A DNA stretch of 64,000 bases from Muricea muricata (Eukaryota; Cnidaria; Anthozoa; Malacalcyonacea; Plexauridae). A model generated the notes under the pieces. It had not been told where the DNA came from. It worked only from the letters and a program-made list of their open reading frames with translations, and searched no databases. Where the stretch lies: NCBI GenBank assembly GCA_963855995.1, contig OY979724.1, positions 12,694,032 to 12,758,031 on the forward strand, given 5' to 3'. Both the position numbers and the translations under genes were made by a program. Positions 222 through 50,239 of the stretch are shown here, in pieces (positions within the stretch are counted from its first letter, which is position 1; each line of letters starts with the position of its first letter).

Positions 222-2602
222 ATGGCAGTATTTCCTCCAATGTTCTCAGTGTTTTTACAAACTGCTTGTTCACAACTGCAAACGTCAGGGTTTGTGCAAA
301 ACTCGAATGTCCTTAAATGCCCTTGACTTAAGTGCTTGAATTTATAAAGAAGTGCGTGAAAGTCCTTGAATTCGTCTTGCTTTATAGTTTCTGGGCATTT
401 TTTGAGACTGAAAAATTAAAGGTCCATCACTTCTAAATCTGTTTTAAACACTTTTTAGTCCTTGAATTTCCTGAAACATGGCCTTGACAATCCTTGAGAA
501 GTTCTTGCCTTATTCACATTGACCTGTACCCCACCTGGAAGTGTCTTCTAGGGAGTACGTCAAAGCGAGACAATATTCTGATACAAAAACCTCACGATAG
601 GATTTTTACGCAAAGGAGGCGTCTACGAGACTAAGGTATCCTGGCTAGGAATAAACTATGATAACATGTGGTGACCTTGAAGGAAAACAGTCACGCTGGT
701 TCAGCCAATGAGGTGGCAATGAGCTGTTAATATGACACATTTACGAAAGATAGCTACGCTTCTGTTGCTTGTTTGAAATTTGTAATTGGTCGTAACTGTC
801 GTATATAGGAAGGATGATCATCTTGGATGATCTGATAGTGTCTAGATGTACCTTTTCCATTATGAGCTGTATTAAAATCAGCCATTATTAACTGTAGATC
901 TGTATTCAGATACTCATCACATCGGCCATGCACTTTGATATATTCACGACTAAATGGAAACTAGACTTTAAAGTTTTGCCTGCAAAGCGCAATCTTAACT
1001 GTCCAAAATTCGTTATATACCTGATGCAAAACCCTTGCAATCGCAACAAATAGTGACCACGGCAAAATTCAAAACAAGTACACCCGATTAGAAGTCTTCA
1101 AGGAGGTTACCAGTTCAATTTTTTTCCTAAAATAACATTTCCTGTATACAAGTTGTCTCTCTGACCTTACATACTGCGATGATGACAGTAGCCTCGCCAG
1201 GAGTGCACGTCTCGAGCCCAAAACAGACATTTTATTGGCGCCTGTCGAAGACAAATCAGAATTTTCTGACTGGCGTGTTTAATATTAGCAAGGTTAGCGA
1301 AGGAGCTCTAAAATGCTATTTAAAGCGGTCGAAAATTACGATCAGATTTCTCTATATTTACATCCTAATCCAATAATATACCGGCTATTTGGCCAGACGA
1401 GCTTTACTGTTTTTACCCTTTCTTTGATTGTTTACTTTATTATGTAGCTATAAAATTTCGCATTATGTACTATTAGTACAAAAGATCTTTGGAACGTTAT
1501 GGTTTTTGAACGCAACTTACAAATTTGTTATATTTCCATCAGTGTTTCCTCGGGTATTTAGGATGTATATAATATGATGTTTATTCTTTTTGGATTTCAT
1601 AGTTTTCTGGTTATGTTGATCCAGTTATTTTACTACATACGAAAATATTTTTCACAGTTTCTGTGGTTTATTTTGTATGTATAAGTACTTGTGTTGGAAT
1701 CTAGCTGCGTTTTTTTGTGTTTTCTTTTCTATCCAAACATGTTATGAAAACACCTAAATCGCGCATTAATCCTTTCTCGCTGCGTCTGTCACATTGATGG
1801 ATTAATAAGCGTTGTTAGCTTGAAACCTTGCTATGTATACTGCTGTTGTTTTGATAGTCGTTCATGTAATGCATCGTGACAATCTTTCTGCTTTTTCAAC
1901 CAACAAAGTTCTCTTTACATCCACGCTGGAGTTCTTCTTTAGCTTCTTCTTCTCCTTTACCTGAAGACCTCACACACACGATTTTCAGAGAAGTGCTTTT
2001 ATAATTGCAGTATTTGTTTTGAAAGTGCATGATCTGTAAGTAGATGTTCTACTTATATGAAGACTTTTCTGGAAAGAAAAGGTATTAAATTTAACAAATT
2101 CTTAAAAAAAGTATTAAATTTAAGTTTAGTCTGAGAAGGTTTTAGTGACCGCGTTGTATCGAATACGAACTCTGAAGAGTGTTAACACGGACGCAAATAT
2201 TGTAGAAGTAGCTTTTTTGTGAAACTCTTCAGTTTCATAGTTCTCCAAGTTCCAAATTGGCCAGTTCCTTGACAGCATTTCGCCAGGAGTATATCGAGAT
2301 TTAATATTTTCACCTTGGGGGAGGGGTGAGGTGGGACGTTCTATTCCCATTTCTCAGCCCAAATTTTGACAAAATCCCACTGTCGGAGAGTACAAATCTC
2401 ATAGTCCTAATGGTTGTCTTGCACAAATCTTGATTGTTTTTTTTTTGCCGATAATTGCCAGTCCCAGCACATAGAATTGCATTTTCCCAGCAAAAATATG
2501 CAATTCTTCGCTCCCATCATACTTCTTCAGGGTCGTCTTTATGAACTTAGTCAAAAAGGGGGAGGGAAAGCTTAGGAAAATCGCATCAAAACTGTTTACG
2601 AC
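222..2602. other. No recognised gene
   Basis: AT-rich sequence with only short, compositionally poor open frames (all under 85 codons, none with a recognisable family). I see no RNA gene, no strong repeat structure and no convincing exon. Confidence 0.5.
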
Positions 2603-2991
2603 AATGGACCATTCCCCAATTAGACAAACTTTTAAATTCGAAAGCAATTTCAGCTCAGTTGGAAAGAGCTTCCTAAATTTAGTGAAATTGTAAAGTTTGG
2701 TTGCAAAATATGGTAAAATGTGGAAAATATAGCCCTGTAAAGTTTGTGAATTTTGTATACTTTTGTATTACACAAGGAAAAGAGTTACCACTACGTGGAA
2801 ATGTGGTAACGCTTTTTCCCGCATAATAGAAAAGTATACAAAATTCGCAAACTTTAAAGGGCTATATTTTTCACATTTTATAATATTTTACAACCAAACT
2901 TCACAATTTCACTAAATTTAGGAAGCTCTTTCCAACTGTGCTAAAATTGTTTTCGAATTTAAAAGTTTGTCTAATTGGGGAATGGTCCATT
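2603..2991. mobile_element. MITE family 1, copy 1 (full length, 389 bp)
   Basis: Almost the whole element is an imperfect palindrome. It starts AATGGACCATTCCCCAATTA and ends with the complement TAATTGGGGAATGGTCCATT. The inner arms pair through a TTTTGTATACTTTTGTATTA-type segment. The same family recurs at 19470, 20372 and 37373, and a diverged split copy is at 13299. The short open frames inside the arms are not genes. Confidence 0.85.
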
Positions 2992-3356
2992 GTACTTGTT
3001 CCATATTTTCGCCTTCTAAGACTTTCGCCAAACATGGAGCTTTTATATATCTCGAGGTATCGTTTCCGTTTTTACAAGACAAAATACCGCTTTAATCTTA
3101 CGGGGAGCTTTTCCACACTTCTGCCAAAACGTTTAGATATATTTTTCAGACTGTTTTCAAAAACAAGACATCTGGGAAATATATTATGTTACCAAATATG
3201 CTTCTGAGATCATTGGCGTCGACCGTAAATGCAACTGACAACAACAATTTATTTGTTTGTGTTCCGACAGAGAGGACAAATATACCATTAAGCAGTTGGG
3301 GGTGATTAAATGACATATTGACAAAGCAGACAAGACTGTAATACTCTTGCGCTTCT

Positions 3357-3600
3357 ACAAACTCACAAGGTTAAATCTTTCAAGATAACATGACTATCAC
3401 TTAGGTTTATATTTTTTCTTGCTATTTTTATGAGTACTATATATGGTACTTTCTAATGACCAACTTTGTACTCCGCGCTCCTATAAGCTTTCAAGGTTTA
3501 ATCTTTCAAACTAACATGACTAGAAATTAGGTATGTATTTTTCCTAGCTACTTTTATGAGTGCCATATAGAGGACCAAATATAAGACCAATCTTTTAGGT
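3357..3600. repeat. Two diverged tandem copies of about 122 bp
   Basis: The segment beginning near 3365 (AAGGTTAAATCTTTCAAGAT) is repeated near 3492 (AAGGTTTAATCTTTCAAACT). Shared features follow in the same order: AACATGACTA, then a TTTTTATGAGT-type block, then a block ending in GACCAA. Confidence 0.6.
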
Positions 3601-6299: not shown

Positions 6300-7164
6300 C
6301 TCGGGCTCATGTTAATTGTGCTAACTTTATGTATTGACTCATTTATAGGCAGAAAAATGCATCGTGTTCCCAACTTGTGGTGCCATTCAAGTATTTTTCT
6401 TCATTCTGTGAGTACATTTAAATTTTGTATTCTGCATAAAAGTTATACCGAAATGGAGGTACTCCTTAAATTTCAAATATTTCAAAGCAAGCATGACTTA
6501 CTGGTCTTGTGTAATGCATAAGTTTTATTTTCACTAACCATCTCACTGGTAGTCAATTAGATAATAACCGACAGTTGAAAGTTTTGGCTTAGCCTGCTGG
6601 GATACGCGCACTTTTTGTCGTTTTCTAAAAATGGAATTAGCGCATTGTTTCAGTTCAAAAAAAGAGCATAGCCTGTGGCGATGTGCTTGTCGCATAACTC
6701 AACAGATTGTGGGAAACTTGGGAAAATTAGTTTTTTGTCTCAATGCGTACCCAAACGCGACGCTGTGGCCTGTGGCAAGGGATTTACTTAGAGTTACATA
6801 TGACTTCTCAAGCATTATTTCGTTGGACAACTACCTTGGGAGCACAGAAAACAGATCATGCTCCATCGTGGTCAACTTTATGAAACATGGAACTTTGGAA
6901 GTTGTCGGCTTTGCGTTTCTAGTGACAAATGAATGAGAACATCACAGAGGGTTGTCGTTAGAGAAGGCTGCCTTCGAAGCATTCCTCACCTAACGATTTA
7001 ATTACGTGCGAATGAACAAAGAGCAGACGCCGTGACTGTTGCATACATATATTGCGTCGCTTTGACTCTTGCGTCTTCATATAAATTTCGTCGTCGCTAC
7101 AAGAGCTTGTATTTCACCACGGAAGAGCGTAAAATCGAATTTGAATATCCCTGCGCAAATCACG
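6300..7164. other. Sequence upstream of noggin
   Basis: No recognised gene. A 101-codon open frame at 6631-6936 (+) has no family signature and no splice support. A TATAAA at 7080-7085 lies about 80 bases upstream of the noggin start codon and could be its core promoter. This is an inference from position and motif only. Confidence 0.35.
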
Positions 7165-7851
7165 ATGTATTTCTGGGGAATGTTTCTGCTGTTTTTTCTA
7201 CAAGACGTTGGCTGCGTTCCGGTGTATCGTCCTATGGCGAGCGCAAAATTTCGAAATATTTCTCGAGAGGCTTTTAAGAAGTTGAACTCCGAGACTTGGC
7301 AAGGCAGCGTGCTGACGGAAGCCGAGAGGACAAGCTATGTCGAGCTGAGCGTCAACCGCAAAAGCAGCAGAGTATCTCGTTGGAATTCCACGCAACTCAA
7401 GGAACTGTTAGGCGAGAATTACGATCCAAAATTTATGTCTGAAACCAAACCAAACCGGGCGTGGCTTAAGAGGAGAGTCGAGCTGCATCGTCGAAGCGAA
7501 TTCAAGCACGACGAAACAGTTAAGAACACAATTACAAAACTTTTCAATGAAAAGGGGATTGGTTTGAATGAAGTCGATTTCGAGGACATGCATTTTTGGC
7601 TGTGGAATTTAACCCGATGTACAGTTGAGCCGCTGTGGAAGGATTTTGGAAGTCACGTTTGGCCTCGTTATGTCAATTTTGGCAAGTGTTCCAACAAAAA
7701 CACCTGCTCCTTTCCCAGCGGAATGAAATGTCGGCCAAGCAAAGAGAAGAGCATCCGACTCTTGTACTGGTTTTGTCGAAAGAATTCCAAGAGATGCTTT
7801 TGGTCCTCGTTTGAGACGAAAGTTATTCACGCGTGTCGTTGTTCGTGTTAA
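7165..7851 (+). CDS. noggin: Noggin-like secreted BMP antagonist (single exon, 228 aa)
   Basis: Predicted secreted cystine-knot protein of the noggin family, which binds BMP ligands outside the cell and blocks receptor contact. I chose the Met at 7165 rather than the in-frame upstream codons because it is directly followed by a signal peptide (FWGMFLLFFLQDVGC). An N-terminal clip-like segment carries LKELLGENYDPKFMS, matching the LLGGHYDPGFM region of vertebrate noggin. After a basic middle part comes MHFWLWNLTRCTV, then DFGSHVWPRYVNFGKC, the SFPSGMKCRPSK block, WFCRKNSKRCFW and the terminal CRCSC. Length and intron-less structure match vertebrate noggin (about 230 aa, one exon). MITEs start less than 100 bases downstream. 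I am very confident of the family; whether it antagonises BMPs in this animal is inference. Confidence 0.95.
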   Translation: MYFWGMFLLFFLQDVGCVPVYRPMASAKFRNISREAFKKLNSETWQGSVLTEAERTSYVELSVNRKSSRVSRWNSTQLKELLGENYDPKFMSETKPNRAWLKRRVELHRRSEFKHDETVKNTITKLFNEKGIGLNEVDFEDMHFWLWNLTRCTVEPLWKDFGSHVWPRYVNFGKCSNKNTCSFPSGMKCRPSKEKSIRLLYWFCRKNSKRCFWSSFETKVIHACRCSC

Positions 7852-9784: not shown

Positions 9785-10320
9785 TTGATATTCACGTTTG
9801 AGCCCAGTGCAATGCTCATTTTGATAATTTACAGCAGAATATCACTCGTGCTAAACGGCAAGAATATTGTTCTTCGAAAATATTTTTAAACAACCAATTT
9901 TGACGGATTCCATCGATTCAAGGGGTAATGAATATTATGATTTTTTGAATTGTGCAATAGTATCCGTTGTGTTTCCACTTAAATTTTTAGCATCGATTAT
10001 AATATGTAAACTTTATAGTATATTCTTGATGATGACATAATCGTTATGCTGATTTAAGACTTCAATTAAAGTTGACATTGGATATTGTCAATATATATTT
10101 ATATATTAACATCATATACCAAGTTTACAAGCTAAACTATTAACTAGCGTTAACATTAACATCAAGTCTAGAATTAAATTCTCGGTACATTACGTTCTCG
10201 GTAGGGCAGTGGTACATATAAGGAGGATAAGTCAGACTTGGATTATTGCATTTGAATTTTAATTCACTACAAATCTGTTTCGTATGACAAGCAGAAGCTT
10301 GCCACATCATCAGTTAATTC
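9785..10320. other. No recognised gene
   Basis: AT-rich. Nothing recognisable apart from short AT-only runs around 10090-10110. Confidence 0.4.
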
Positions 10321-10324
10321 CTTT

Positions 10325-10533
10325 ATATCATATAAGCTACCTTCGTCTATATCATATAAGCTACCTCCCTCTATATCATATAAGCTAGCTTCCTCTATAT
10401 CATATAAGCTACCTTCCTCTATATCATATAAGCTAGCTTCCTCTATATCATATAAGCTAGCTTCCTCTATATCATATAAGCTAGCTTCCTCTATATCATA
10501 TAAGCTAGCTTCCTCTATATCATATAAGCTAGG
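10325..10533. repeat. 24-bp tandem array, about 9 units
   Basis: The unit is TATATCATATAAGCTAGCTT followed by CCTC. Early units read GCTACC and later ones GCTAGC, so the array homogenised from its right part. It lies beyond the 3' end of ART-family copy A (minus strand). Confidence 0.9.
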
Positions 10534-10756
10534 TTCCTCCGCAGATATCCCTGATGGTATTGAATATTTTTATACACGGCTTGGGTTGGCTGTGTCGAAC
10601 TGGATTATGAGGATTATGTATATATCATACTAGTTATCTTATGTCTTCTGAATTTCTAGACGACCAGTTACATTTTACAGCATAGATTATATAAGCTTAA
10701 AGCATTTATAAGAATAGCTATATGGTAAAACGTTATATGTTGGTTTAAAACAACAC

Positions 10757-11034
10757 TTAATCTCTGAATATCTTCGATGACTCCTTGAAGTTCAACTCCT
10801 GGTTCTCCAACACACTCGTGCGAACAAAAATGACTGAACGGACGACAACATTGCGGGCAGATTCCACACGCAAAATGACTTCTTTGTCGTCTCCTTCGAC
10901 AGGGACACGATATTCAGGTAAATCTGGTTCACCTTCCATTCCTTCGTAGCTGAAAATGATATTCCGGAATTATCTAAAGCATTGTTATACCTTATGGTAA
11001 CATTTTCTGATATAATTATTCTTCGTCAGTGAGC

Positions 11035-11133
<99 letters not shown>

Positions 11134-12476
11134 GGAGTAAGAACTCAAGTGCCAAAAGTGAAGTCAAAGATGGCGGAAATTGAAGAAGCTATAAGGTGTC
11201 AATCTTAATCCTCCAACACATCAACACATAGCCTAGGATTGAATGTAGTATAGCTCCTTCGATTTTCCTTCAAATCTGAGATAAAAATCGATTCAACTAT
11301 TTTCACAACTTTCACGAAATTGATTTGAAACGCCACTCAAATTTTACCTTACCTTAAAACAGTGGGGTCATATGCTTTGTAGCTTTCTGGATTACAATAC
11401 GCTTTGATCAAAACACACCAATTTTCTTTCGCGGACATTATTCTTTCTGAATAAGCTGCGTGCGCAGAGTACAAGATACTCGGTGAAAGAAAGATGGCCG
11501 CTGCCCAGTTGCTGATGCCAAAAAATGTTTCCCCAAGTTTGAAATGGCCAGGCGGTGGTTTGATTCCGCTTGTGCCAGCGGGCATCAGACCTTGTGCTAG
11601 GATTGATTCGAGGTTTTTAAATTTTGTTCCATGCCATGTCATCACCCAATTTTTGAGGATTTTGTTTAATTCCGATCTTGTTTTTGAATCAAGTCTACTC
11701 GGATGACGAATCAACTCTTTTGCGATGACTTTCCCATTGAACTCGATTGGTCGCATTTCTGATACGAGCTGTTTTGCCGTAAGTTTTGTTTTCACGGAAA
11801 AAATGAAATCTAACGAAGCATTTCGAATCAAATTTGTGATCTCGGTTGAATGACTTTCCTCTAATGCCGTTTGTTGCCATTTATTCTTAATGTCAGTTCG
11901 TGCGCCAAATTCGAGCAACAAACCAACGACAAGAGGATGACCAAAGAACGAAGCGGCATGAAGTGGGGTACTACCATCTCTTTGGATCTTATTTATATCC
12001 GCGCCTTTTTGCAGCAACATTTTCACCGTATCGTAGAAACCAGACTTGCAGGCCAGGTATAGCAATGTGCGACCGTGTTCGTCAGATTTTTGAACTAGGG
12101 ATTTGTCTCTTTGAATCAGCGCTTTCAATTCAACGGTATTACCATAAGCTGCTATGGTAAAATGATCACGAGTTTTGATGGTAAACATGTTGTTCTGTTG
12201 GCGATGATATCTTGGTTCTGTCGACGTCAGGATGTGGTTAGCAAGTGAAGCAAGAGCTCGATTTTGACGATGTGGTTGTCTAATTTTCTCTCGGAATGCC
12301 ATTTTGACTTCATCACGAGAAGCCGCGGATGAGGCAAGACCCAAGGTTACCCAGGGGTTTATGGGTAGGGGGATGCAGACCTGTCCACCGCCAGCCGCCG
12401 TGTATGATATAGTGGTAGAACGATGTGCTGTTCTTGATGAGGAACCTGGTCTTGAACGTCGCGATCGCGAAGCCAT
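10757..12476 (-). CDS. J-like / ankyrin / PARP-ART-fold protein, copy A (2 coding exons, 438 aa)
   Basis: Exon 1 is 12476-11353 and exon 2 is 10949-10757. Donor TTAAG|gtaagg and acceptor ttttcag|CTACG give a clean phase-2 junction. Residues about 38-90 ([19 protein letters not shown]) resemble a DnaJ J-domain, but the HPD motif is missing. Residues about 105-220 hold three to four ankyrin repeats ([30 protein letters not shown]). Residues about 275-438 read as a PARP/ART catalytic fold: WHGT with His at about 282, then [11 protein letters not shown] with Tyr near 336-342, then [14 protein letters not shown] with Glu at about 398, placed like the H-Y-E triad of PARPs. I infer ADP-ribosyl transfer; no named family was recognised. 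The acceptor ttctag|GGATTTACC just upstream of the ATG implies a 5' UTR exon. The intron carries a TA microsatellite. Confidence 0.8.
11037..11131. repeat. (TA)n microsatellite
   Basis: About 95 bases of uninterrupted TA inside the intron of copy A. Confidence 0.95.
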
Positions 12477-12499
12477 GGTAAATCCCTAGAAACATGTCG

Positions 12500-12775
12500 T
12501 TAATTATTATCTTCAATTATAAAATTCATTAATAATGCATGAAGTCCGTAACTCGGAAAGAGATTTCGCCCTGATTTACGTAAACTTCGAGTTTGATTTT
12601 CTAACCAAATATCATTCATTTCATCGCTCAGCGCATCACTCGCCTCGCCTTCAAAAGACACCAGTTCTTGTCTTGTGTTAGTTGTGTGCGTTTGTGTGGA
12701 ATATTTGTTAGATATATTACGTGTTGCAACAGAATTATTTCTGGTTAATAGCATAGATTCATCAGCTGAATCCAA
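12500..12775 (-). other. Possible upstream exon of copy A (Ser/Thr- and Glu-rich frame)
   Basis: An open frame of about 90 codons (includes ARNNS-type Ser/Thr-rich sequence and SFEGEASDALSDEM) lies just upstream of copy A. A good acceptor (ggattcag) precedes it, but I find no donor that joins it in frame to the copy A start. It may be an untranslated exon, a remnant of an N-terminal exon as in copy B, or chance. Confidence 0.25.
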
Positions 12776-12819
12776 ACAAGCAATTGAGTATTAAGAATAT
12801 TATCATTACATGGAGCTCG

Positions 12820-13118
12820 ATGGTTTGAAAATGCATTAGAATTACAATATAAGTCCTCTATGTTTTTGTTCTAGTTTATGCAGAAATAAGGTCCTTCGTC
12901 GTCACGTGCGTATTGTATTTTTACCAAACTAACCAATAACAACGTTTTAGAAAAGTTAGCCATCTGCGACTTGAACGATAGTGTAATTTAAGAATTGCTG
13001 TTGGTGGATTTGGCAAAAACACAACACACACGTGACGATGAAGAACCATATTTTTGCATAAACGTTGACCAACATAAATAATGAGTTATATTGTTATTCT
13101 AATGAATTTTCAAACCAT
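12820..13118. mobile_element. Fold-back element, about 300 bp
   Basis: The ends ATGGTTTGAAAATGCATTAG and the inverted CTAATGAATTTTCAAACCAT pair. Inner blocks pair TTTATGCAGAAATAAGG with a TTTTTGCATAAA block, and GTCACGTGCG with CACGTGAC. Non-coding. Confidence 0.7.
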
Positions 13119-13134
13119 CTACGATCTTTCCTCG

Positions 13135-13268
13135 TTTTCATATATCGTAATTCATGGGCGATGTCCTTTTGGTTTTTGCGATGGATAAAATCTTTTGTGT
13201 TTCTGAAATCATTTTCTCCTTCAGTGATCTCCCTCAATAGATCGGCGATGAATAACGATGTATGAAAA
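13135..13268. mobile_element. MITE family 4, copy 1
   Basis: Palindromic: TTTTCATATATCGTAATTCA at the left is mirrored by AATAACGATGTATGAAAA at the right. The interior (AAAATCTTTTGTGTTTCTGA) matches the inverted copy at 47015-47163. Confidence 0.7.
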
Positions 13269-13298
13269 CCTAAGCCGAAAATTCGATGTCGAATTCGG

Positions 13299-14488
13299 AA
13301 TGGACCTTTAAACTTTTAGACGATATTTTCAAAAAATTCGAAACAGGCAAAAATATTACTACATCTTGAAAGAGTATCCTAAACTTACTAAAATTGCAAA
13401 GTTTGGTTGTGAAATGTTCTAAAATATGGAAAATATAGCCTTGCGAATTTGGCAAATTTTGTACACATTTTGTATTACGGGTGGAAAATAATACCCAGTT
13501 GATACCCTTGGGTTTCATTTCTCACGGGTAACAAAAAATACAGGAAATTTGCCAACTTCGCAACAACAAGGCTATATTTTCTATACGACTATACAGGGTG
13601 TATAAAAAAAGTAGACAAATATGAAAACACTCTCTGTTTCGCAAATCGCCTCAATGTACGATGTTTTGTAATTTGTATTAAAATAGATTGTTTTGGTACT
13701 TTTAATCTAGAATAAACCGGGAAAATGAGAAATTTAAAACTTCAATACCCGGGTGGTTCTGTCTTTTACGGCAATTCAAATATGCCTTGCGCTCAAAACT
13801 TAAATGCTTAAAAGTAATTTTGACTTGGTAGATGGAAAATTTGTCGGACGTTGTATTGCTGTACAAAATTTCAGAAAATTTGCTCGAGTCTAAGCCGTTC
13901 AAAACGTCGCGCGAACTTCCATATTTTTAGCAAAATTAGCTTTTTGCATGTTTAATTTATGTTTTTTGCATACAACTTCCAAGGGACATTTAATTAAAAT
14001 TGGAACATTTCTTCAGAAAAACGATTCTTATTCAGAAAAATATACGTTCGTACGACGTTTTGAATGGCTTAAACCCAATCAAATTTCTTGAAATTTTGAA
14101 CAGCAATAAAACACCTAACATATTTTCTACCTACCAACTCAAAATTACTTTTAAGCCTTTAAATGTCGTGCGCAAGCCATTTTTAATGTGTTTCAAAATA
14201 CGCACACCCCTAGGTTTGAAACATTTAAATTTCAGAATATTTCATTTATTCTACACCGTAAATACCCAAACAATGTATATCAATAAAAAACTTCATACTT
14301 CAAGCCGCTTCGCGAGGTTGAGAGCCGTTTCAAAATTGTCTACTTTTTTTATACACCCTGCAGTTTACAACATTTTACAACCAAACTTTGCAATTTTACT
14401 ATGTTTAGGATGCTCTTTCAAGCTGTGGTAATATTTTTTTCCTATTTCGATCTTTTTTAAATTTCGTCTAAAAGGTTACAGGTCCATT
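13299..14488. mobile_element. Diverged MITE family 1 copy split by another element
   Basis: The outer ends AATGGACCTTTAAACTTTTA and the inverted GTCTAAAAGGTTACAGGTCC, with the inner AAATATAGCC and TTTACAACCAAACTTTGC blocks, belong to family 1. The middle is occupied by a second element (13594-14360). Confidence 0.65.
13594..14360. mobile_element. Nested element with 24-bp inverted ends
   Basis: It begins CAGGGTGTATAAAAAAAGTA and ends with the complement TACTTTTTTTATACACCCTG. The interior is itself an imperfect palindrome (TAAGCCGTTCAAAACGTCGC versus ACGACGTTTTGAATGGCTTA). A related fragment is at 22960-23110. Open frames inside are remnants or arm effects with no transposase motif. Confidence 0.7.
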
Positions 14489-16096
14489 TGGTCCATCCAT
14501 TATCATAAGTATAATTTATCGAGCGTAAATTAATGGCAGGACGCCCGCCCCGCTTGCAATTAGTAATTATCATCTTGAATAGATATTTTATTTGGCACAA
14601 TTATTTAAAAAGCATTTCTCGTCGTTTGAACGATATATTTTATAAAACAATACTTGTGTGTACTTATTTGAAGCGTGAAGGCGGAAGTAGTTTGATCTGA
14701 TACTGATTCTATAATAGCGGTAGACCTGACTGGAAAATTTGCAGTGCGGAGATTTGCAGAGATTTCGAAAATTTACAATAAGATATATAGGGAACATCAA
14801 AACTGAGCAACCAAGATCTTGGTTGCACAATACAAACTTCCAGACTGGGCAGTAGATGACGTAACCTAAGCAGTTGAGCTAAAATACTAGAAATATCGTT
14901 TAAAAGTGCATCAAATAATACTGAAAGAGTTCCATTTAGCTTAGCCTTTCTATGTTAGTCCAATATTAAGGACTTACCTTTCAGAAGAACTGCGTTGGGC
15001 TTAACGAAACGTGTAGACAGTATTGTGCTGACTTAACCGTGTCGGGTTATTTCTGTGTAGCAAGTCATGTGAGCAAACAAAATTAAAAATGCATTTTAAT
15101 ATTCATTTAAATATTCATGTATAATTACGTTTTTTGTGATGATCAATAGATGTTCAACCGTGCCATGTGTAAGCAGAACCAATAGTTTAGTTGATATTAA
15201 TTCTAAACAATTGTATATTATCCCTGTTATATTCGGAGTTTCATATACATATATAGGTTAAGGCAAACGACATTATCAGTTAAATTATTATGCATGAGGT
15301 CTGGGGATTACACATTTGACCTCTTTTAACTTCTTGCGCTTATTCGAACATTAACTAGTATTTTCAAAATCTGGTTGCATCTTTAACAATTTTTAAGTCT
15401 GGTTTCCATTTGTTCGTAACTGTTGTGGCAAAGTCATTTTCAGTGATGTTATATAACGTAGCTCTTTCCGCGAGCTGTGTTCAAATTAGACAATATGACC
15501 TAGTTGATTTGAAAACACGGAAAAGTACTGGCACTAGTTGTCAAATAGAAATCCATTTCTCGAGCCAAACTCATTAAGTATAATTTACTTCGGTTCCAAA
15601 TTTCTGGTGGACTTATAATTTTCTTTGCTGAACATGATTACAAAGTTTCAACAAGTTTCATAAAGGAGAATAAAAGATATAAGTGATTATAAACAGCAAA
15701 ATGGATTTGTATTCGGTAGCTAGTTCCAGGCCTTTTACTCACGGTCAGATCAGCTGGACTAAGTGTAGATCCGTGTACACATCTCTGTATATCACATCGG
15801 TCATTCGCTGACTGATATATATGTATTCACCACAGCCACCAATGTGGCGGGCAGTTCACATATTTGAGTCTGAATTAATGTCTCCAGAATCAAACAAAGT
15901 ATGAAAAAGCCGTAACTTTGTTAGTTGTTTCCAAAACACTTTCAAATTGCCATTACGCTTTAAGCGTAGGTTTGTCGGTTCACACTTGATATACATCGAT
16001 CACAGCTACCACTAACTGAATGGGAACCAGACATGACTATAGTCTGTATATAATAACTAATATCATGAATTAAATGAGTATGGAATAAGCAAAACT
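14489..16096. other. No recognised gene
   Basis: AT-rich intergenic DNA between copies A and B of the ART family. I found no exon or element that I can defend. Confidence 0.4.
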
Positions 16097-16497
16097 ATCA
16101 TTATTAGTAGAATCATACCAGTATATTCTCATAAAACACAAAACAATAGACACTCCCTATTGTTTTGTGTTTTATGAAAATACTCTATGGCAACCGAAAC
16201 TTTCATACCAGTATACTATTGCAAATTAATGCTGTAATTTTATTGGCTACTCTACTCGCTATCTATTACTCAATGGATAGCGAGTACCGAAAGAATAATT
16301 TGCGTTGAGATTTTTTTATAAGAAATTGCTTAAAAATCAATTTTCATGTTAAATATGTCATGTTGGATCTCCGATTCTACTAAAACAATTAGATTACTAG
16401 CTCTCGATTTCTGTAAAACGATAGCCGATTCCGGCTTCGCCCACATCAACTATCACTTCATAGAAATCTCAAGGTCGCAATCTAATTGTTATTTAGT
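16097..16497. mobile_element. MITE family 2, copy with internal hairpins
   Basis: It contains a near-perfect hairpin (CATAAAACACAAAACAATAG with its complement, 16131-16180), the shared landmarks TATACTATTGCAAATTAATG and GCTACTCTACTCGCTATCTA, and a second inverted block opening ACAATTAGATTAC and closing AATCTAATTGT. The same parts in reverse order are at 30674-30966. Confidence 0.75.
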
Positions 16498-16540
16498 TAT
16501 ATGAACAAACTTGCTATATCCAATTGTAAATAACACTTTG

Positions 16541-19500
16541 TCACTCCAATTCTTTGTCTTTGAATATCTTCTCTGTCTCTCTGAACTTCATCTCGTGAGT
16601 CTCCAACACACTCGCGCGAATAAACATAACTGAACGAACGATGACATTCCGGGCAGATTCCACACGCAGAATAACTTCTTTGTCATCTTCTAAAACGGGC
16701 ACGTTCATTTCGGAGAGATAACCACTCTCATAGTCAGACTCTTCACCAAAGTTAAAAGTCACGCGGTATTCTGGTGATGGAGTCTCGCCGTCCATTCCTT
16801 GGTAGCTGAAAAACCCCCGAGATAACTATTAGAGACTCGTGAGAAATTAACAGTGGGGTGGACGGGGCTGGAAACATGGGGAGGGTATGACTCCGAAAAT
16901 GGAGAAATGTACTGCTTGAAGGGAGGGGGGGGGGTTGAAATTTACGCTTGAGCTCATATAGTTGTTGGTACATATTTGGTCCAACCCTCCATTGTTTTGG
17001 TCTTTAAAAACTGATGCCCCTCCCCATGTTTCCACCCTCTCTGTCCCATTGTAAATTTCTGACAAATCCCTACTACCTTTTAATGCATAACCGGATTGCT
17101 ATTTAAAATCAAGCATTGAGTAAAAGCATTTTCGTCGACTATTGTTTGTCACCTTCATACTTTCAAGGTCAATATTTTCAAGGCTTATCCCATAGAGATT
17201 ATACACCAGAGGGGATATCGGGGGTAAAATTTGGGAGCGCGGCGATTGGGGGGCAAATTGAAGTCCCGGATGTTCACTCATTCACGATGTCCCAGGCAAA
17301 AAAGTCATTTTAGACGAGTTTTTCTGCTTTTTGAAATGTTTTTCCACGTAAAAATATTGAATATATCATTTCAGATTGTCTAAAATAATAAAAACAATTG
17401 AAAAAGTACTATTTTGCCCACAAAACCGGCAAAACGACCTCAACAACGATGAGGAAAAAAATCATAGAAATAATAGATATAGAATGCGTGCTTGGTAACC
17501 TAGCCGGTACCCAAATTGAAAAAAAAATTGCCCTTATAAATCCGCCATGTTGGATTTGTCCGAGGAGCGGTCTATGCGAATTACAGCGGGGCGAGTTTAA
17601 TTTGCCCTTATAAATCGGCCATTTTGAATTTTAATGTGGCGTCATTTGTTTACCTGAAAATAGATAGGAGCGCGCATTCTATATCTTTTATTTCTATGAA
17701 AAAAATTCATACAAATTTCTGCTGTTGCTAAGGTGGTTGCTAAGGGAGCATTAGCTCAGCCAATCAGCGCCTGGCCCTGCATCCGGGACTTGAATTTGCC
17801 CCCCAAAAAACGCGTTCCCTTTTGTTATCAGTGAAAAAGATTACGATGCCTCCTCTAGTGTTATTTATAATCTCTATGGCTTATCCCACTTGTGACGTCA
17901 TGTAATGAGTAAGAATTTATCCAAGATGGCGTTACATTACATGGGAAATTGTAAAGACCTTCACTGATAATTTTTAAAGACCTATCAAACGGATCATCTG
18001 CTTAGTTTTTATCGTGAAATCTGAAACACTGTCGCGAGATAAAAATTCTTATTTTCTGTCATTAGAACCTAAAGTACCTTAAGACAGTGGGATCATAGGC
18101 TTTGTAGCTTTCAGGGCGACAGTACGTTTTGATCAGGACACACCATTGCTCATTTTCGGACGTTATTCTTTCTGAATAAGCTGTGTGCGCAGAGTACATG
18201 AGGCTTGGTGAAACAAAGATAGCCGCTGCCCAGTTTTCGACACCATAAAAATTTTCCCCAAGTCTAAAATGACCAGGTGGTGGTGAGATGCCCGCAGAAC
18301 CAGCGGGCAGAAGACCTTGTGCTAGGATTGACCCCACATTGGCAAGCTTTGTTCCATGCCATGTCAACTTCCATGTTTTCAGGATTGTGTTTAATTCTGA
18401 TCTCGTTCTCTCGTCAAATCTACTTGGATGGCGAATCAACTCCTTCGCGATGATGTCACCTTTGAACTTAACCGGTCGCATTTCTGAGACGAGTTTCGCT
18501 TGCGTCAATTTGGCTTTCTCACGAAAAATGAAATCTGACGAAGATTCTTGAATCAAATTTATGACCTCTGTTGAATTACTTTCTTGTAATGCTGTTGCTC
18601 CCCATTTATTCTTAATGTCAGCTCGTGCGCCATACTCTAGCAACAACCGAACAACATTAAGATGACCATAGTATGCAGCGACATGAAGAGCTGTGCTACC
18701 ATCTTTTTGAATCTTATTTACATCGGCGCCTTCTCGCAACAACATTCTCACCATACCGTAAAAACCAGACTTGCAGGCCAGGTATAGCAATGTGCGACCG
18801 TGTTCGTCTGTAGTCGTGAGCAGGGAATTATCTCTTCTGATAAGCACTTTCAGCTCATGTGTATTACCATATGCTGCTATGGTGAAATGATCACGATTTA
18901 TGATGCTAAACAGATCATTCTGTTCACGGTGATATCTTGCGGGCTCTGTGGAGGTTAGCATGTGCTTTGAAAGAGAAACAAGAGCTCGGTCTTGATCGTG
19001 AAGACCTGGATTGTTAATCTTCTCTTTGAAAGCTTGTTTTGCGGCGTCGCGGGTGGAATCAGAAGGAAGACTCAAGGTTGCCCAAGGGTTTATGGGAAGA
19101 CTAATGGTCACCTGCATGCCACCAGCGGCTGTGTATGATATATTTTGAAAACGATCCGCTTCTGAAATTGGTTTCAACAATGCACCCGCCAGTGATTTGC
19201 AATCAAGAGTAGATGGCGATACTATCGGTAATGACGGTAATTCAAGATCCTAAAAATATGGTGGTAATTTTATATATGAAAAACAATATTGTGGTGAATA
19301 AAATGTATGAAGTATGCCCGTAAGGAGAACTGCTGTTGAACTTGGTTTCTTTGGAATTGATTCTACTACTTCTTCATCGCAACTGGAAGAAATTACTAGC
19401 TTGCAAAGATGGTGATCTGGTTTTACCGGTGGTGGACTTCCTAAATACACTTGGTCTCCGTGATCTATATTTAATACAATTCTCAAGTTTGTTTTCAAAA

Positions 19501-22500
19501 TATTCTAAAATGTGGAGAACATAGTCCTGTAAAGTTTGCGAGTTTTTGTATACTCTTGTATTACGCACAGTAATACACTATGTGGAAATGTGGTGACGCT
19601 TTTTCCCGCGTAATACAAAAGTATACAAAATTCACAAACTTTACATTACTATATTTTCCACATTTTACAATATTTTAAAACAAAACTTGATAATTACACT
19701 ACATTTAGGACGCTCTTTCCAACTGTGCTAAAATTGTTTTCAAATTTAAAAGTTTGTCTAATTGGGGAATGGTCCATTCTCATACCAATATTTTAACGTT
19801 CGGATTATATACGTATATTATATATTGTGCAAAATACCTCAAAAACTGCGTCTCCTGGTGGTGGTGAAGATGTTGGATCGGGTAGCACTAGTGGTGACGG
19901 CGAAGATAATGTTAATCCGCGTGGTTTTACCGGTGGTGTCCCGGTTGATACTCGTGAACTTGGTGTAGGTGATGGTGATCTAACAACCTAAAAATATGAT
20001 TGTCATTATATATAAAATGTACAAGTGTGCTGTAGACTTAAGGATTCGACATTCTAGCATACTTGATGATAAAGAACGGGAAAATGTATTGAAGCTTTAG
20101 AAATTCAGAAACGCTCGGGACAATTGATCAATGGGTGTATTGGTAAAACAATTGATATTTAAAACATTTTAGTTTATTTTAGAGTATTCCATCTTTCACG
20201 GAAAATGTTCTTATGCCATTGTACGAATAAAAACATTCATTATTTGTTTATATCATCCAAAATAGACGGTTGCTTTTCAAGAACAGTTTAGTAACAGTTT
20301 GTTAAGTGTTTTGATTGGATGGGATTTATTGAAAAAATAAAGAGTGCAATAGAACAATGTATGAGCTCTCTAAATTGACCATTTCCCTATTAGAAAAACT
20401 TTTGAATTTGGAAAATCAATTAACACAACGAGCATCCTAAAATTCATACAATTCTCAAGTTTGGTTTCCAAGTATTGTAAAATGTTATGGAAAATATGGC
20501 CCTGTAAAGTTTGCGAATTTTGTATACTTTTGTATCACGCACAGGTAAGCGTTACCACTATGTGGAAATGTGCATGGTAACGCTTTTTCCTGCGTAATAC
20601 AAAAATATACAAAATTGGCAAACTTTACATTACTATATTTTCGACATTTTTCAATATTATACAACCAAACTTTAGGCGTTTAGGACGCTCCTTCCAACTG
20701 TGCTAAAATCCTCAAATTTACTTGGATGGCAAATCATCTCCTTCGCGATAATGTCACCCGATGATGAACTTAACCGGTCGCATTTTTGAGACGCGTTTCT
20801 CTTTCGTCCATTTGGCTTTCTCGCGGAAAATTAAATCTGACAAAGCATTTTAAATCAAATTTTTTATCTCGGTTGAATTACTTTCCTGTAATGCTGTTTT
20901 GTTTAACCCATTTTTTATGTCAGTTCGCGCACCATAGTCGAGCAACAACCGGATAACAGAACGATGATCATAGAATGCAGCGACATGGAGAGGTGTGTTT
21001 TTATCTCTTTGGATCTTATTTACGTCTGCGCCTTCTCGCAACAACGTTTCCACCATATCGTCAAAACCAGATTTACAAGCGAAGTATAGCAATGTGCGAC
21101 CGTGTTCGTCTGAAGCAGCAAGCAAGGAATTATCTTTTTTAATAAGCACTTTCAGCTCATCGGTATTACCATATGCTGCTATGGTGAAGTGATCACGATT
21201 TTTTATGGTAAACAGATTATTCTTGTGACGTTGATATCTTGCGGGATCTGTCGAGGCTAGCATGTGATTGGCAAGAGAAGTAAGGGCTCGACTTTGACGT
21301 CCTGATTCTTTAATCTTCTTTCGGAAAGCTTGTTTCACATCGTAACGAGAATATTTATCGGGGGATAGGCCCAAGATTTTGCAAGGGTTTATGGGGAAAC
21401 TGATATATACATTCGTTCCATCGCCAGCTATGTACGTTATGGTTGTAGAACGATCTGCTGTTGAAATGGGTTTCAGTGGTGGTGGTGGTGATGGTGGTAG
21501 TGGTGTTGGTGGTAGTAATGGTGGTCGTAGTGATGATTTATCCTTCTAAAAGCATAACACTAATTATTATTTTTTACTCGTTTATCTATGCTAATATCCA
21601 TACAACATTATTCTAGAACCTTGGTAATGGAATAAATTATTTGCTTCTATAAACCTCTTGCCAAACTGACAGTGATGGATTCCGCTTAAGTGAAATAGAC
21701 TGTATGTATTTGTGATCATGTCTGGGCTTCCTCAAATATTTACCACTACAGCAAAGTATTAGTGTTGCAATAATTGATGTAGATAAGGTTGATAGCTTTT
21801 AGGCGTATAATATCTAAGATAATTTCTACTGAAATTGTTTACTCACTATGGTGGATGATTTTTGTGAAGACAAACTGCTGTTGAACTTAGTGTTGCCTAT
21901 TGATCCATACCTATATTCATTCAATTTTTTTTTAAATCGTGATAAGAAAGTATTCTCGAAATATCAATTCATTTGCTCCTACGCACCTCTCACGAGGCTA
22001 ACAGTGGAGGATTTTCCTGGAATGAAACAGGCTGTAATGTTTGAGGTGTTTGTCATGTCTGGGTTTCCTCAAGCATTTCACCACTACAACCTGTTGCTTC
22101 ATCAGGTGGTAGGCGAATTGGTAGGACAATTGTTGCATATGGTAGATAGTTAACAATTAGTCGCCGAAGGCGAGGTGATTACAAGCCTATATTCACTGCA
22201 TGTTGATCAACGTAATTACCAATAACAAAAATATCTAAAGTAATTTCTACTGAAAATGTTTACTCACTTCCGTGCTTAGTTTGGAACAAACTAAGGGACG
22301 ATCTGCTCTAGGAAGACCTGTTGTTGAACTTGGTGTTGCCGCGCTCGATGATCGTAATTTGTGTGAAGGACCAGTTGTTGGATTTGATGTCGTCACACCT
22401 GATGGCAATTTGTGTGAAGGACTAGCTGTTGGATTTGGTGTCGTTGTACCTGATGGCAATTTGTGTGAAGGACCAGTTGTTGGATTTGTTGTCGTCACTC

Positions 22501-24254
22501 CTGATGGCAATTTGTGTGAAGGACCAGTTTTTGGATTTGTTGTCGTCACTCCTGATGGCAATTTGTGTGAAGGACCAGTTGTAGGATTTGATGTCGTCAC
22601 ACCTGATGGCAATTTGTGTGAAGGACCAGTTTTTGGATTTGTTGTCGTCACTTCTGATGGCAATTTGTGTGAAGGACCAGTTGTTGGATTTGATGTCGTT
22701 GGTGTCGTACCGGATGGCGATATGCTTTCTGGACTTTTTGCTCTTCCCAATGAACTTGTTCTGTTTGAGCGTTTAAATGGCGGAAGATAATTTGGGATGT
22801 AAGAACGCTGAACAGATAGCTAAAAAGATAACATACATTGATCGTTATCTACAGGGCATGTCCGTGCATTTATATATACACTTCAACAACACCAGCTACA
22901 TTCATAACGATAGTGAAACTTTTGAGTTACATCGCTTGAGCATTAGACACTACAGTTCTTTTCTAATGCCAAGATATACGACAACGAGGGTAGATAGGAA
23001 AACGACTGACTTTTCTCAAAAACGTTTGCGCGTCCTTAAATTTGCTGAAATCATAAACAGCAATTCAACACCTAACACATTTTCAAGCCACCAAGTCAAG
23101 ATTACTTTTCTGAAGTTCCAGTCTGTATTGGTCAACTTACCACTGAGAGAAATGGCCTGTAAAATAAAGCGAGTGAATTGCCACAATATTTAATAGTTAT
23201 TAGATCAGGTTAATCTGCCTAGCCATGCCTATTTTCATTCAAAATTGTTTTGCTTCGCACCAGGCTAACAGTGGAGGATTTTGCATGAATGAAACAGGCT
23301 GTAATGTTTGGGGTATTTATCATCATGTCTGGGTTTTCTCTAACATTTTACTACTACTTAACAAATAGATTGCATTTTGCCGTTGTCTGTTCAGTTATAG
23401 ATGCACGGTATGACGTCATAATGTGGTAAGAAGAAAAAAGTGGACCACGAGCCGCCTAGGCGAGTGGGTCACTGATGCTCTTACCACATTATGACGTCTA
23501 CCGTGTATCTATAACTGAACAGACAACGGCAAAATGTAATCTATCTGTTTTGTATAATAAAAATGTGAAAAATTTTGCCAAAATAAGCTTTGTAGTGCGA
23601 CGAAAAGACTTTCACTGAGCCGAACGCGAAGTGAATATATATGCTTGTAATGAGAAAATACCAAAGAAAATCTAAAGTAATTTCTACTGAAAATAAACGT
23701 TTATCCCGTACCCATTGGTCGTGTAAAGAACGATCAGCTCTTGTTGAACTTGGTGTTGCCGCACTCGATGGCGATTTGTGTGAAGAATGACCTGCTCTAG
23801 GAAGATCTACTGATGAAATTGGTCTAGTTGTACCTGATCTCTGTAAGGGTTCAGAACGATCTGCTCTAGGAAGACCAGCTGTTGGACTTGGCGTTGCCGC
23901 AGCCGATGGCGATTTGTGTCGATGCTGAGGTACTGGAGTACTGTATATGCTGGCACTTGGTATGGTGGGATCCGATGGTAATTTATGTTGAGAAGGATCT
24001 CCTTTTAAACAATCTGCTCTAGAACTTTGTGTCGTGTTATCTGAGAATATGTAGATAGAATGATCAATTGAGGGATCTACTGATGAACGTGGTCTCGTCT
24101 CATCCAATCGCGGTAAGGGTGCAGAATGATCTGTTCTTGAATTTAGTGTCGGTGCTTGGAATGTAAATATAGAATGATCTATTTCCGATGGCGAAATGTA
24201 TTCTCGACCTCTTGCTGTTCCCGATGATGAGCTTGTTTTCCTTGGATGTTCCAT
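16541..24254 (-). CDS. J-like / ankyrin / PARP-ART-fold protein, copy B (multi-exon model)
   Basis: The firm core is exon 19249-18078 plus last exon 16805-16541, joined through TTAAG|gtactt and ttttcag|CTACC in the same phase as copy A. The core has the same order as copy A: ISYTAAGG and INPWATLSL, a J-like helix pair without HPD, ankyrin repeats ([29 protein letters not shown]), WHGT, YSAHTAYSERI, and a last exon with [14 protein letters not shown]. The last exon has about 20 extra acidic residues compared with copy A. Upstream exons 19987-19838, 22819-22268 and 24254-23712 are all open, phase 0 and bounded by good splice sites. If joined they give about 893 aa beginning MEHPRKTSSSSG. Copy C and two broken exon remnants (near 21850 and 19330-19450) lie between them. 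The core is secure; the joining of distant exons is inference. Confidence 0.7.
17188..17880. mobile_element. Fold-back element interrupted by a second element
   Basis: The outer ends pair CCATAGAGATTATA with TATAATCTCTATGG, and GGGGCAAATTGAAGTCCCGG pairs with CCGGGACTTGAATTTGCCCC. The inner block 17470-17693 has its own inverted ends (ATAGATATAGAATGCGTGCT / GCGCATTCTATATCTTTTAT) and a relative at 30965-31205. The whole sits in the last intron of copy B. Confidence 0.7.
19470..19775. mobile_element. MITE family 1, copy truncated at the left
   Basis: The right half ends in AAGTTTGTCTAATTGGGGAA then TGGTCCATT, as in the 2603 copy. The left arm starts inside the family consensus and lacks the terminal 60 or so bases. 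It abuts a broken Ser/Pro-rich exon remnant of the ART locus at 19330-19450. Confidence 0.8.
19838..19987 (-). CDS. Ser/Pro-rich exon upstream of copy B (50 codons, phase 0)
   Basis: Bounded by tttttag|GTTGTTAGA and GAG|gtatttt, open throughout, exactly 150 bases. It encodes a Ser/Pro/Thr-rich linker (SPSPTPSSRVSTGTPP, SSPPPGD) with no globular domain. Its middle (TGTPPVKP) is echoed by the broken remnant at 19330-19450 (GSPPPVKP), so this exon was duplicated. Probable linker exon of copy B. Confidence 0.55.
20372..20706. mobile_element. MITE family 1, copy that truncates ART-family copy C
   Basis: The left end (TTGACCATTTCCCTATTAGA) is near complete. The right end stops at GTGCTAAAAT and passes directly into copy C sequence, so it lacks the terminal 50 or so bases. 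Family consensus AAATTTGAAAAC and the copy C junction AAATTTGAGG share a short run, which fits deletion by microhomology. Confidence 0.8.
20706..21545 (-). pseudogene. ART-family copy C, truncated
   Basis: It begins after acceptor ttttag|AAGGATAAA at 21545 with a Pro-rich run encoded by a CCA/ACC triplet repeat. The J-like segment (SRYDVKQAFRKKIKE) and ankyrin repeats ([16 protein letters not shown]) follow. The frame meets a TAA at 20850. Clear homology to copy B continues after the stop (FREKAK, MRPVKF) with small frame errors until about 20707, where a MITE replaces everything downstream. The ART domain is therefore gone. It could still be transcribed as a terminal exon of an ART-less isoform; otherwise it is a pseudogene. 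Confidence 0.75.
21848..22150. other. Duplicated exon-intron block remnant of the ART locus
   Basis: On the minus strand a short Ser-rich exon-like piece ends at ATA|gtgagtaaac (21847), the donor context seen at the 22268 exon, but no acceptor gives a compatible phase. The flanking intron text (AACAGTGGAGGATTTTCCTG, CATGTCTGGGTTTCCTCAAG) recurs at about 21665-21760 and 23260-23340, showing that exon plus intron units were copied together. Confidence 0.5.
22268..22819 (-). CDS. Ser/Thr/Pro-rich exon with a 17-residue tandem repeat (184 codons)
   Basis: Bounded by tttttag|CTATCTGTT and GAA|gtgagtaaac, exactly 552 bases, open in phase 0. After a basic start (YLPPFKRSNRTSS) it encodes about seven units of 17 residues of the form GPSHKLPSGVTTTNPKT, then SSAATPSSTTGLPRADRP. 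Low complexity and no fold expected; the Ser/Thr content suggests a flexible, possibly modified stalk. It is homologous to the 23712-24254 exon (shared KTSS/RTSS start, ISPS, AATPS and GLPRADR). Most likely the N-terminal region of copy B or of a copy C isoform. Confidence 0.6.
22353..22712. repeat. 51-bp coding minisatellite, 7 units
   Basis: The unit on the plus strand begins GGCAATTTGTGTGAAGGACC and is 51 bases, a multiple of three, so copy-number changes keep the minus-strand frame. Units differ at a few positions (Lys/Thr, Ser/Thr/Pro). Confidence 0.9.
22960..23110. mobile_element. Fragment of the 13594-14360 element family
   Basis: ATAAACAGCAATTCAACACC and CAAGATTACTTTT align in order with AACAGCAATAAAACACC and AAAATTACTTTT at 14100-14150. 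No ends remain. Confidence 0.5.
23366..23546. mobile_element. Fold-back element with 65-bp arms
   Basis: AGATTGCATTTTGCCGTTGT and GTTCAGTTATAGATGCACGG on the left are mirrored by the right arm ending ACGGCAAAATGTAATCT. Each arm carries a GACGTCATAATGTGGTAAGA block, including a CRE-like TGACGTCA on the left. It lies in the first intron of the copy B model. Confidence 0.8.
23712..24254 (-). CDS. First Ser/Pro-rich exon of the copy B model (starts MEHPRKTSS)
   Basis: A genuine ATG at 24254 opens 181 codons ending at TGG|gtacgg, phase 0. The sequence is Ser/Pro/Asp-rich with degenerate repeats (SSAATPSST, GLPRADRS, ISSVD) and no signal peptide or membrane span. The donor context aligns with the gtgagtaaac donors of the sister exons. 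Probably the N-terminal exon of the locus. Beyond the donor the frame runs a further 57 codons into intron. Confidence 0.6.
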
Positions 24255-49200: not shown

Positions 49201-50239
49201 ATTGTACTTTCCTTGCACAAAGGCACATTGTGCTTTTTCACGATATAACACCGGTTTACTCAGGTTTCGTGTATGAAGTGTATGTCTCGTATTTATGCAG
49301 TACGATGCACTCGCTGATTATCATAATTAGTCTCTAATAACGATCATATGTAGAATAAAAGGCTTATGCTAAAACTCTCTATTACGTTCACGAAATATTT
49401 GGTATATATTATATATTGACATATATACATAATTGTGTATATGTTAATACCTACATCTTGCATGCTGGGCTATAGCTATGATTCTAACAGCATGAGCACA
49501 CAAAAAAACATAATAGGATTTTTCACGTCCTGAGACAATACAAGCAGAATCGCTTATACTTCTTGTTTTATATTTCCCTTGCATCGGCGTATCGGTTCTG
49601 CTTATACATCGTTTCAGACGCATGCATACTTGGGTAACAGATAGGATTTGACAAAACTTATCTACGCATATTTTTAATCAAATACTTCATCATCTTTAGC
49701 TCATTGCTAGCTATTACTTCTAGGTACAACAAGTAGTCTCGTGCCTACCAAATGCTGATTTATACCTCATTGAACGACAAAGTCACCGAGCATCCCGTGT
49801 GGATCCGGCAATGTTCCCATTCGTCCTCCACCTCAGGATAGTAGAGGCCATGTTCCATTGTCTTCTCCATGATAAACTGGTGCTAGACATGAACCCAGTC
49901 ATCACCGCTAGATATTTTGGTCTGCCCACGGGAATAAAAAAGAAGAAAGCAGCAGTCGATTTAATATCGTTTATGATCAAGACAAATGAAAATACCCAGT
50001 TCTTTGAGGACTCGCCTGACGCGTTCTTCGAGAAGACGACGAGCATGACGGGAAGTAAGGAGACGGTCTCTTCCATTCTGGCAACATCTTCAATGAAGGA
50101 GCACATGGTTGATAAGAAATGGCAAGCGGATATCCCTGAGAGGTTTATGGAGTATTTTGTGGCAGAAAAAAAGAAAGACGATCTTAGCGATTGCCTACTT
50201 CAAGCTTTGGCATTTTTAGATCTTGCTTTTCAGGAGTAG
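46253..50239 (+). CDS. TEFM: TEFM-like mitochondrial HhH / RNase H-fold protein (4 exons, 350 aa)
   Basis: Exons: 46253-46393, 47475-47726, 48787-48930, 49724-50239; all GT-AG and phase 0. Residues 1-47 (MLSSLLESMRVLRTPC, basic with few acids at first) look like a mitochondrial presequence. Residues about 48-131 hold two helix-hairpin-helix motifs (NTKGIGPARGNAII and AAIKGFGRAFFKNL). Residues about 132-350 form a RuvC/RNase H-type fold: VSIDIGLSNAAYVHID, RVLDW, ADLYLIERQ, LHLRIVEAMFHCLL, ARYFGLPTGIKKKK, KKKDDLSDCLLQALAFLDLA. Length (human about 360 aa) and architecture match TEFM, which binds mitochondrial RNA polymerase and promotes elongation. Unlike human TEFM as I recall it, acidic residues of Cce1/Ydc2-type resolvases are present (D140, E196, D331/D332/D335). 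AATAAA at 50276-50281. Confidence 0.88.
47015..47163. mobile_element. MITE family 4, inverted copy (first intron of the TEFM-like gene)
   Basis: Ends TTTTCATGTATCGTAATTCA and AATTACGATATATGAAA. The interior CAGAAACACAAAAGATTTTA is the complement of the 13135 copy. Confidence 0.7.

Follow-up and report, generated by a model that had tools for sequence, protein, structure and literature searches.

A 64,000-nucleotide stretch of the genome of the anthozoan Muricea muricata (GenBank assembly GCA_963855995.1, contig OY979724.1, here C9:12694032-12758031; hereafter the window, to whose start all coordinates below are relative) carries on its minus strand a small tandem cluster in which two members, copies A and B, are spliced genes with intact frames that encode a segment reminiscent of a J domain (J-like), ankyrin repeats and a C-terminal tail resembling PARP. 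We tentatively read A and B, with a confidence that stays somewhat short of even, as a small tandem family of diverged NEURL4-like ADP-ribosyltransferase (ART) proteins whose ankyrin repeats would recruit a partner protein and whose tail would mono-ADP-ribosylate it.

Two intact genes, a truncated copy and the substitutions between them

The product of copy A is a stop-free protein of 438 residues encoded by two exons with a GT donor and an AG acceptor, and the three exons of copy B join in frame over 528 codons with GT/AG sites at the joins (Table 1). The intron within the tail interrupts one and the same Ser codon in the two copies, its length being 403 nt in A against 1272 nt in B. The initial annotation of this DNA, made from its letters alone, had described a shared order of J-like segment, ankyrin repeats and tail and a Glu-containing block on a separate exon common to A and B, and the intact frames and matching last exons found here agree with both descriptions. 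The two proteins are 68% identical over their whole length and 71% identical in the tail. Copy C retains the first half, namely the J-like segment and ankyrin repeats, and has lost the tail, with a stop followed by a decayed tail start that adjoins a dispersed repeat at approximately 20373-20672 detected by self-comparison.

Ratios of nonsynonymous to synonymous substitution rates (dN/dS) were obtained by a script implementing Nei-Gojobori counting and are point estimates without a significance test. Between A and B they were 0.28 overall, 0.16 in the J-like segment and 0.35 in the ankyrin repeats, and in the tail 0.29 for residues 219-375, 0.25 for residues 255-438 and 0.23 for the last exon. 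The Glu block differs between A and B by five synonymous and no amino-acid changes over 15 codons, and the block containing F329 and Y342 by three synonymous and four amino-acid changes over 24 codons. Selection had been proposed to act on a catalytic His-Tyr-Glu (H-Y-E) triad: the predominance of synonymous differences extends across the whole tail, and the assignment of the triad itself was not established. For the J-like and ankyrin parts of copy C the dN/dS was 0.27 against A and 0.42 against B, rising to 0.51 against B for the J-like part alone. The synonymous rate between A and B varied by part from 0.46 to 1.43, the upper value being near saturation, an unevenness that is perhaps due to gene conversion.

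The number of copies was examined in the source genome (453 Mb, 74 contigs), where only the best candidates were scored, so that copy counts are lower bounds and more distant paralogues could have escaped. Up to an expectation value (E) of 1, the tail of B retrieved five exon-level matches, all within the cluster, and the J-like segment with the start of the ankyrin repeats returned three matches, corresponding to A, B and C; no additional copy was present in the 20 kb that flank the window on the left or in the 10 kb on its right. The locus had been called duplicating, which holds for the tandem copies, but the family is small, with at least three members and no more found, and a large lineage-specific expansion was dropped from consideration.

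Ankyrin repeats and the J-like segment

Ankyrin repeats were recognized by Pfam above the cut-off in A, B and C (Ank, 59.9-67.5 bits; Ank_2, 56.3-103.1 bits), two stretches per copy passing singly as Ank, and an AlphaFold model of B displayed four helix pairs in this region, in agreement with the three to four repeats described initially. The J-like segment had been taken for a degenerate J domain without the HPD motif. This motif is indeed absent from A and B, but no significant profile match was obtained: Pfam DnaJ matched none of the three copies up to E 10, and the five matches of a profile of the segment in PDB were led by 2cug_A (E 0.78), which we take to be a J domain, the other four being lymphocyte antigen 96 (E 1-1.1). 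A degenerate J domain is possible, and the helices modelled by AlphaFold in B at residues 67-78 and 85-99 (block predicted local distance difference test, pLDDT, 70-84) would fit it.

These models came from a first AlphaFold run, for which B was entered as its main-exon frame, unspliced, alongside A and C as related sequences, and in which block pLDDT was 52-84 for the J-like and ankyrin parts and 23-50 for the tail. A fold search with the resulting model returned 1047 matches, of which the best 50 were nearly all ankyrin or DARPin entries, as judged by their titles. In a second run the sequence of the B tail continued across the in-frame intron of 424 codons, the stops of which were entered as residues, and pLDDT was 28 overall. 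The prediction of the tail failed because too few related sequences were available, and the fold check suggested at the outset, once run, argued neither for nor against an ART fold.

Kinship of the tail to the ART superfamily

The tail is likely to be related to the ART superfamily and to adopt its fold, judging from a PARP-like block around H282 (WHGT...SILAQGL). In Pfam, the isolated tail of A matched PARP first (PF00644; E 1.5e-4, 21.8 bits), followed over the same residues by Tpt1/KptA (E 0.077) and by no other family up to E 1, and the tail of B also matched PARP (E 2.7e-4), with no Tpt1/KptA up to E 1. In shuffle tests, for which the block was chosen after the Pfam match had been seen, the score of the His block against PARP2 was reached by none of 5000 shuffles for A and by one of 5000 for B; against two PARPs of the same genome it was reached by 69 and 2 (A) and by 183 and 148 (B) of 5000. 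Eight of the nine matches of profile A2 in PDB up to E 10 were PARP chains aligned on the His block (E 0.9-1.4).

Several results weigh against the reading of the tail as a diverged, NEURL4-like ART. The PF00644 scores of A and B (20.5-21.8 bits) lie under the curated cut-off of 26.7, and the match covers at most positions 38-72 of 199. The top match of profile A2 in PDB was a Toll-like receptor chain (E 0.25), phmmer with the tail of A retrieved no PDB chain up to E 10, and the alignment that hhalign made to five PARPs of the genome spanned 20 columns, at a probability of 1.7%. The block proposed to hold the catalytic Tyr, which contains both Y336 and Y342, was at chance level in six local alignments (1300-3432 of 5000 shuffles reached the score), two of which, A and B with PARP2, placed Y342 on the PARP Tyr. 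The Glu block was likewise at chance in ten comparisons (132-1427 of 2000 shuffles), in none of which E398 fell on the PARP Glu. Of the PARP-like H-Y-E context claimed initially, only the His part thus exceeded chance. Moreover, the two AlphaFold runs yielded no usable tail model; the likeness to NEURL4 comes from published motifs compared by eye; the table from which those motifs were taken cautions that the two methods of alignment behind it were not in agreement in every case (PMC7955679); and no ART-like piece was recognized around the Neuralized locus (C5) of the same genome, in searches by tblastn and motif of the upstream 30 kb on both strands and of the downstream 30 kb on the plus strand, where the first 20 kb were also inspected by eye.

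Candidate catalytic residues and likeness to NEURL4

We favour H282, F329 and E398 as the putative triad, with Y342 as a stacking residue. F329 is favoured because the motifs HGT, F[L/V]S and DKE of the tail resemble those published for the ART domain of NEURL4, HGS, LLS and ELE, with the triad H-L-E (Table 1 of PMC7955679). The likeness of HGT / FLS or FVS / DKE in A and B to the NEURL4 motifs was judged by eye, and the positions of Tyr and Glu come without significant alignment. F329 fell on the PARP catalytic Tyr in three of the six chance-level alignments (those of both copies with L001 and that of A with L002, two PARP-domain frames of the same genome), and the alignment of B with L002 covered a different stretch and placed neither F329 nor Y342 there. 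In copy A, H282 and F329 are 47 residues apart and F329 and E398 69, or, counted through Y342, 60 and 56; the corresponding His-Tyr and Tyr-Glu distances in the PARP of L001 are 35 and 65. F329 and Y342 are 13 residues apart, the same spacing as between the catalytic Tyr and the Tyr that follows it in L001 (PARP2, 11).

NEURL4 is counted among the diverged ARTs (PMC10789625) and, as seems to be the case in A and B, combines HG[ST], a non-Tyr residue followed by [L/V]S, and xxE, with Pfam assigning neither (PMC7955679). NEURL4 differs in its Neuralized repeats, of which a search with PF07177 up to E 1 detected none in the main exon of any of the three copies, and in the length of its ART domain, 121 residues (PMC7955679) against approximately 180-220 for the tails of A and B. 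In the tankyrases TNKS and TNKS2, too, ankyrin repeats, which there recruit substrates (PMC10450202), precede a PARP-type catalytic domain. Their repeats form clusters, however, and are joined by a SAM domain and a PARP domain with the H-Y-E triad (PMC10450202, PMC4245714, PMC7955679), against some four repeats and a PARP match below the cut-off in A and B, where SAM was not matched up to E 1. Ankyrin repeats and PARP are also combined in clade 1 PARPs such as PME-5 of C. elegans and ADPRT3 of Dictyostelium, and the combination is said to have arisen independently in nematodes, amoebae and others (PMC4245714); these two proteins are grouped with clade 1 PARPs (PMC4245714), unlike A and B, whose tail is under the PARP cut-off. 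Finally, LRRC9 and TASOR also carry a highly diverged ART-like domain, in LRRC9 beside repeats, but the His and Glu apparently retained in A and B are missing from their triads, listed as Y-V-K and L-Y-Q (PMC7955679). The domain combination had not been recognized initially as a named family. Ankyrin plus PARP is known from tankyrases and ankyrin-type clade 1 PARPs; for the order of J-like segment, ankyrin repeats and NEURL4-like tail, no precedent was met in the excerpts of open-licence PMC literature consulted.

Proposed function and alternative explanations

In the favoured reading, the J-like helical segment and the approximately four ankyrin repeats would recruit a partner protein, and the C-terminal ART-superfamily domain, nearest by its motifs to the NEURL4 type, would bind NAD+ and transfer single ADP-ribose units, rather than chains, to the recruited partner. 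In the active site, the ribose of NAD+ would be held by H282 and the nicotinamide would be stacked upon by Y342, with F329 in the place of the PARP Tyr and E398 acting as the putative catalytic acid. The products of A and B are probably cytosolic, no signal peptide or membrane segment having been noticed by eye. Their function would most likely be that of a substrate-recruiting, mono-ADP-ribosylating protein, or else that of a pseudo-ART adaptor. A part in signalling or defence, put forward initially, is a conjecture. A broader proposition, which we consider rather unlikely, is that A and B found an undescribed H-F-E (NEURL4-like) class of ARTs in which the J-like and ankyrin module delivers the substrate, a tankyrase-like design arrived at independently, out of a non-PARP ART lineage.

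The closest competitor, which we hold to be less probable than an active enzyme, is a pseudo-ART: the tail would keep the ART fold yet serve to bind protein or nucleotide, a role proposed for LRRC9, and most of the work would fall to the ankyrin repeats. The possible presence of Phe at the PARP Tyr position, from three of six chance-level alignments, would suit such a loss of activity, as would the listing of LRRC9 as a proposed pseudoenzyme and of TASOR as inactive (PMC7955679) and the persistence of copy C as an open J-like and ankyrin frame without a tail. It is countered by the retention of both the His and the Glu blocks, the latter without any amino-acid change between A and B, and by NEURL4 itself, which is reported to mediate ADP-ribosylation with an H-L-E triad (title cited in PMC10450202).

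The remaining explanations appear improbable. A canonical, very diverged H-Y-E PARP with Y342 (or Y336) as catalytic Tyr, as proposed initially, would account for the closeness of the His block to PARP2-type sequences and for the two alignments of A and B with PARP2 that place Y342 on the PARP Tyr; however, both alignments are at chance (2375 and 2364 of 5000 shuffles), and H282 and Y342 are separated by 60 residues against the 35 between His and Tyr in L001. The confinement of significance to the His block would suit a WHGT domain of other origin, PARP-like over one strand and helix only, to which we assign a similarly small chance given that the tail of A matches no Pfam family other than PARP and Tpt1/KptA up to E 1 and has no NCBIfam or PADLOC match. 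That the copies are functionless, decaying duplicates is more improbable still: the stop in copy C and the loss of its tail beside a dispersed repeat are what decay would leave, but the frames of A (438 codons) and B (528 codons) are uninterrupted and their splice sites correspond, and their dN/dS stays at 0.16-0.35 in every part. If the tail of the presumed NEURL4-like ARTs A and B is active, these proteins would represent an ADP-ribosyltransferase that is guided by ankyrin repeats and stands outside the PARP family, and they would put to the test whether catalysis can proceed in an active site lacking the PARP Tyr; if inactive, they would add one more diverged pseudo-ART paired with repeat domains.

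Searches for related sequences

In the same genome PF00644 gave 61 exon-level matches at E 0.001, and A and B are not among them since none falls on the contig of the window. One of these matches (L008) resembles a PARP1-like exon, as named by eye. Six loci (L001-L006, on contigs C3 and C6 of this genome, G000) have long open frames of 1354-1466 codons that contain PARP domains; in several of them the same frame matches PARP a second time, and four of the six cluster at C6:14343641-14385395.

The collections searched for relatives of the tail outside this genome contain no eukaryote proteomes, and absence from them therefore says little. Against an alignment of the tail, none of 295 pattern stretches from the genome-contig collection and none of 57 and of 30 from the viral-contig collection was confirmed. 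The motif pattern, which as a positive control recovered both copies in the window, had no match in the genome contigs, nor had its relaxed form in the viral contigs. A wider pattern, WHGT...SPS, picked out four viral stretches that were rejected, three having stops inside the match and the fourth (L019) being open with no likeness by eye. For the tail, tblastn against phages and plasmids gave no match, nor did NCBIfam or PADLOC, and PHROGs returned three families at E 0.1-0.33 with one member each.

Other features of the cluster and window

The coordinates of the cluster are collected in Table 1. The Ser/Thr/Pro-rich first stalk exon, whose ATG lies at position 24254, the end coordinate given by the initial annotation, may join either B or C.

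Table 1 Features of the tandem cluster in window coordinates.
Feature	Position	Strand	Content	Evidence
Copy A exon 1	11353..12476	-	From ATG up to the GT donor (11352); J-like segment, ankyrin repeats, and of the ART-like tail the His block (H282) and F329/Y336/Y342 block	Splice sites, open frame; Pfam Ank, weak PARP
Copy A exon 2	10757..10949	-	Glu block with E398, through stop codon	AG acceptor, in-frame join, homologous exon in B
Copy B upstream exon	19838..19987	-	Pro/Ser-rich, 150 nt	AG before, GT after, stop-free in-frame join
Copy B main exon	18078..19249	-	J-like segment, ankyrin repeats, first part of ART-like tail	
Copy B last exon	16541..16805	-	Glu block, with an acidic insert of 20 residues that A does not have	
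Copy C	20850..21545	-	J-like and ankyrin parts, stop after EIKNLI	
Copy C tail remnant	20678..20849	-	Decayed remnant of tail start	tblastn and blastn self-comparison
First stalk exon	23713..24254	-	Ser/Thr/Pro-rich; ATG, GT donor after	No Pfam match
Second stalk exon	22268..22770 (5' limit tentative)	-	Near-identical repeats TTxNPxTGPSHKLPSGV, GTGAGT donor	Open reading frame 22247-22819, self-matches

Related short dispersed repeats occur at 2601-2993, 19465-19778, 20373-20672 and 37374-37734, at least three of which are self-complementary and one of which adjoins the point of tail loss in copy C. A tandem repeat with an apparent 24-base unit (YDIEEASL in one frame) lies at 10318-10540, just past the 3' end of copy A.

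Elsewhere in the window, open reading frames on the plus strand matched Noggin (7066-7851; PF05806, E 1.4e-34) and, over the cut-off, the mitochondrial resolvase Ydc2 (49724-50239; Ydc2-catalyt, E 2.4e-7), a mainly fungal family. A fibronectin type III domain (fn3_4, E 6.4e-33) at 62185-62889, also on the plus strand, follows Pro/Gln-rich stretches, an arrangement presumably like that of ATF7IP.

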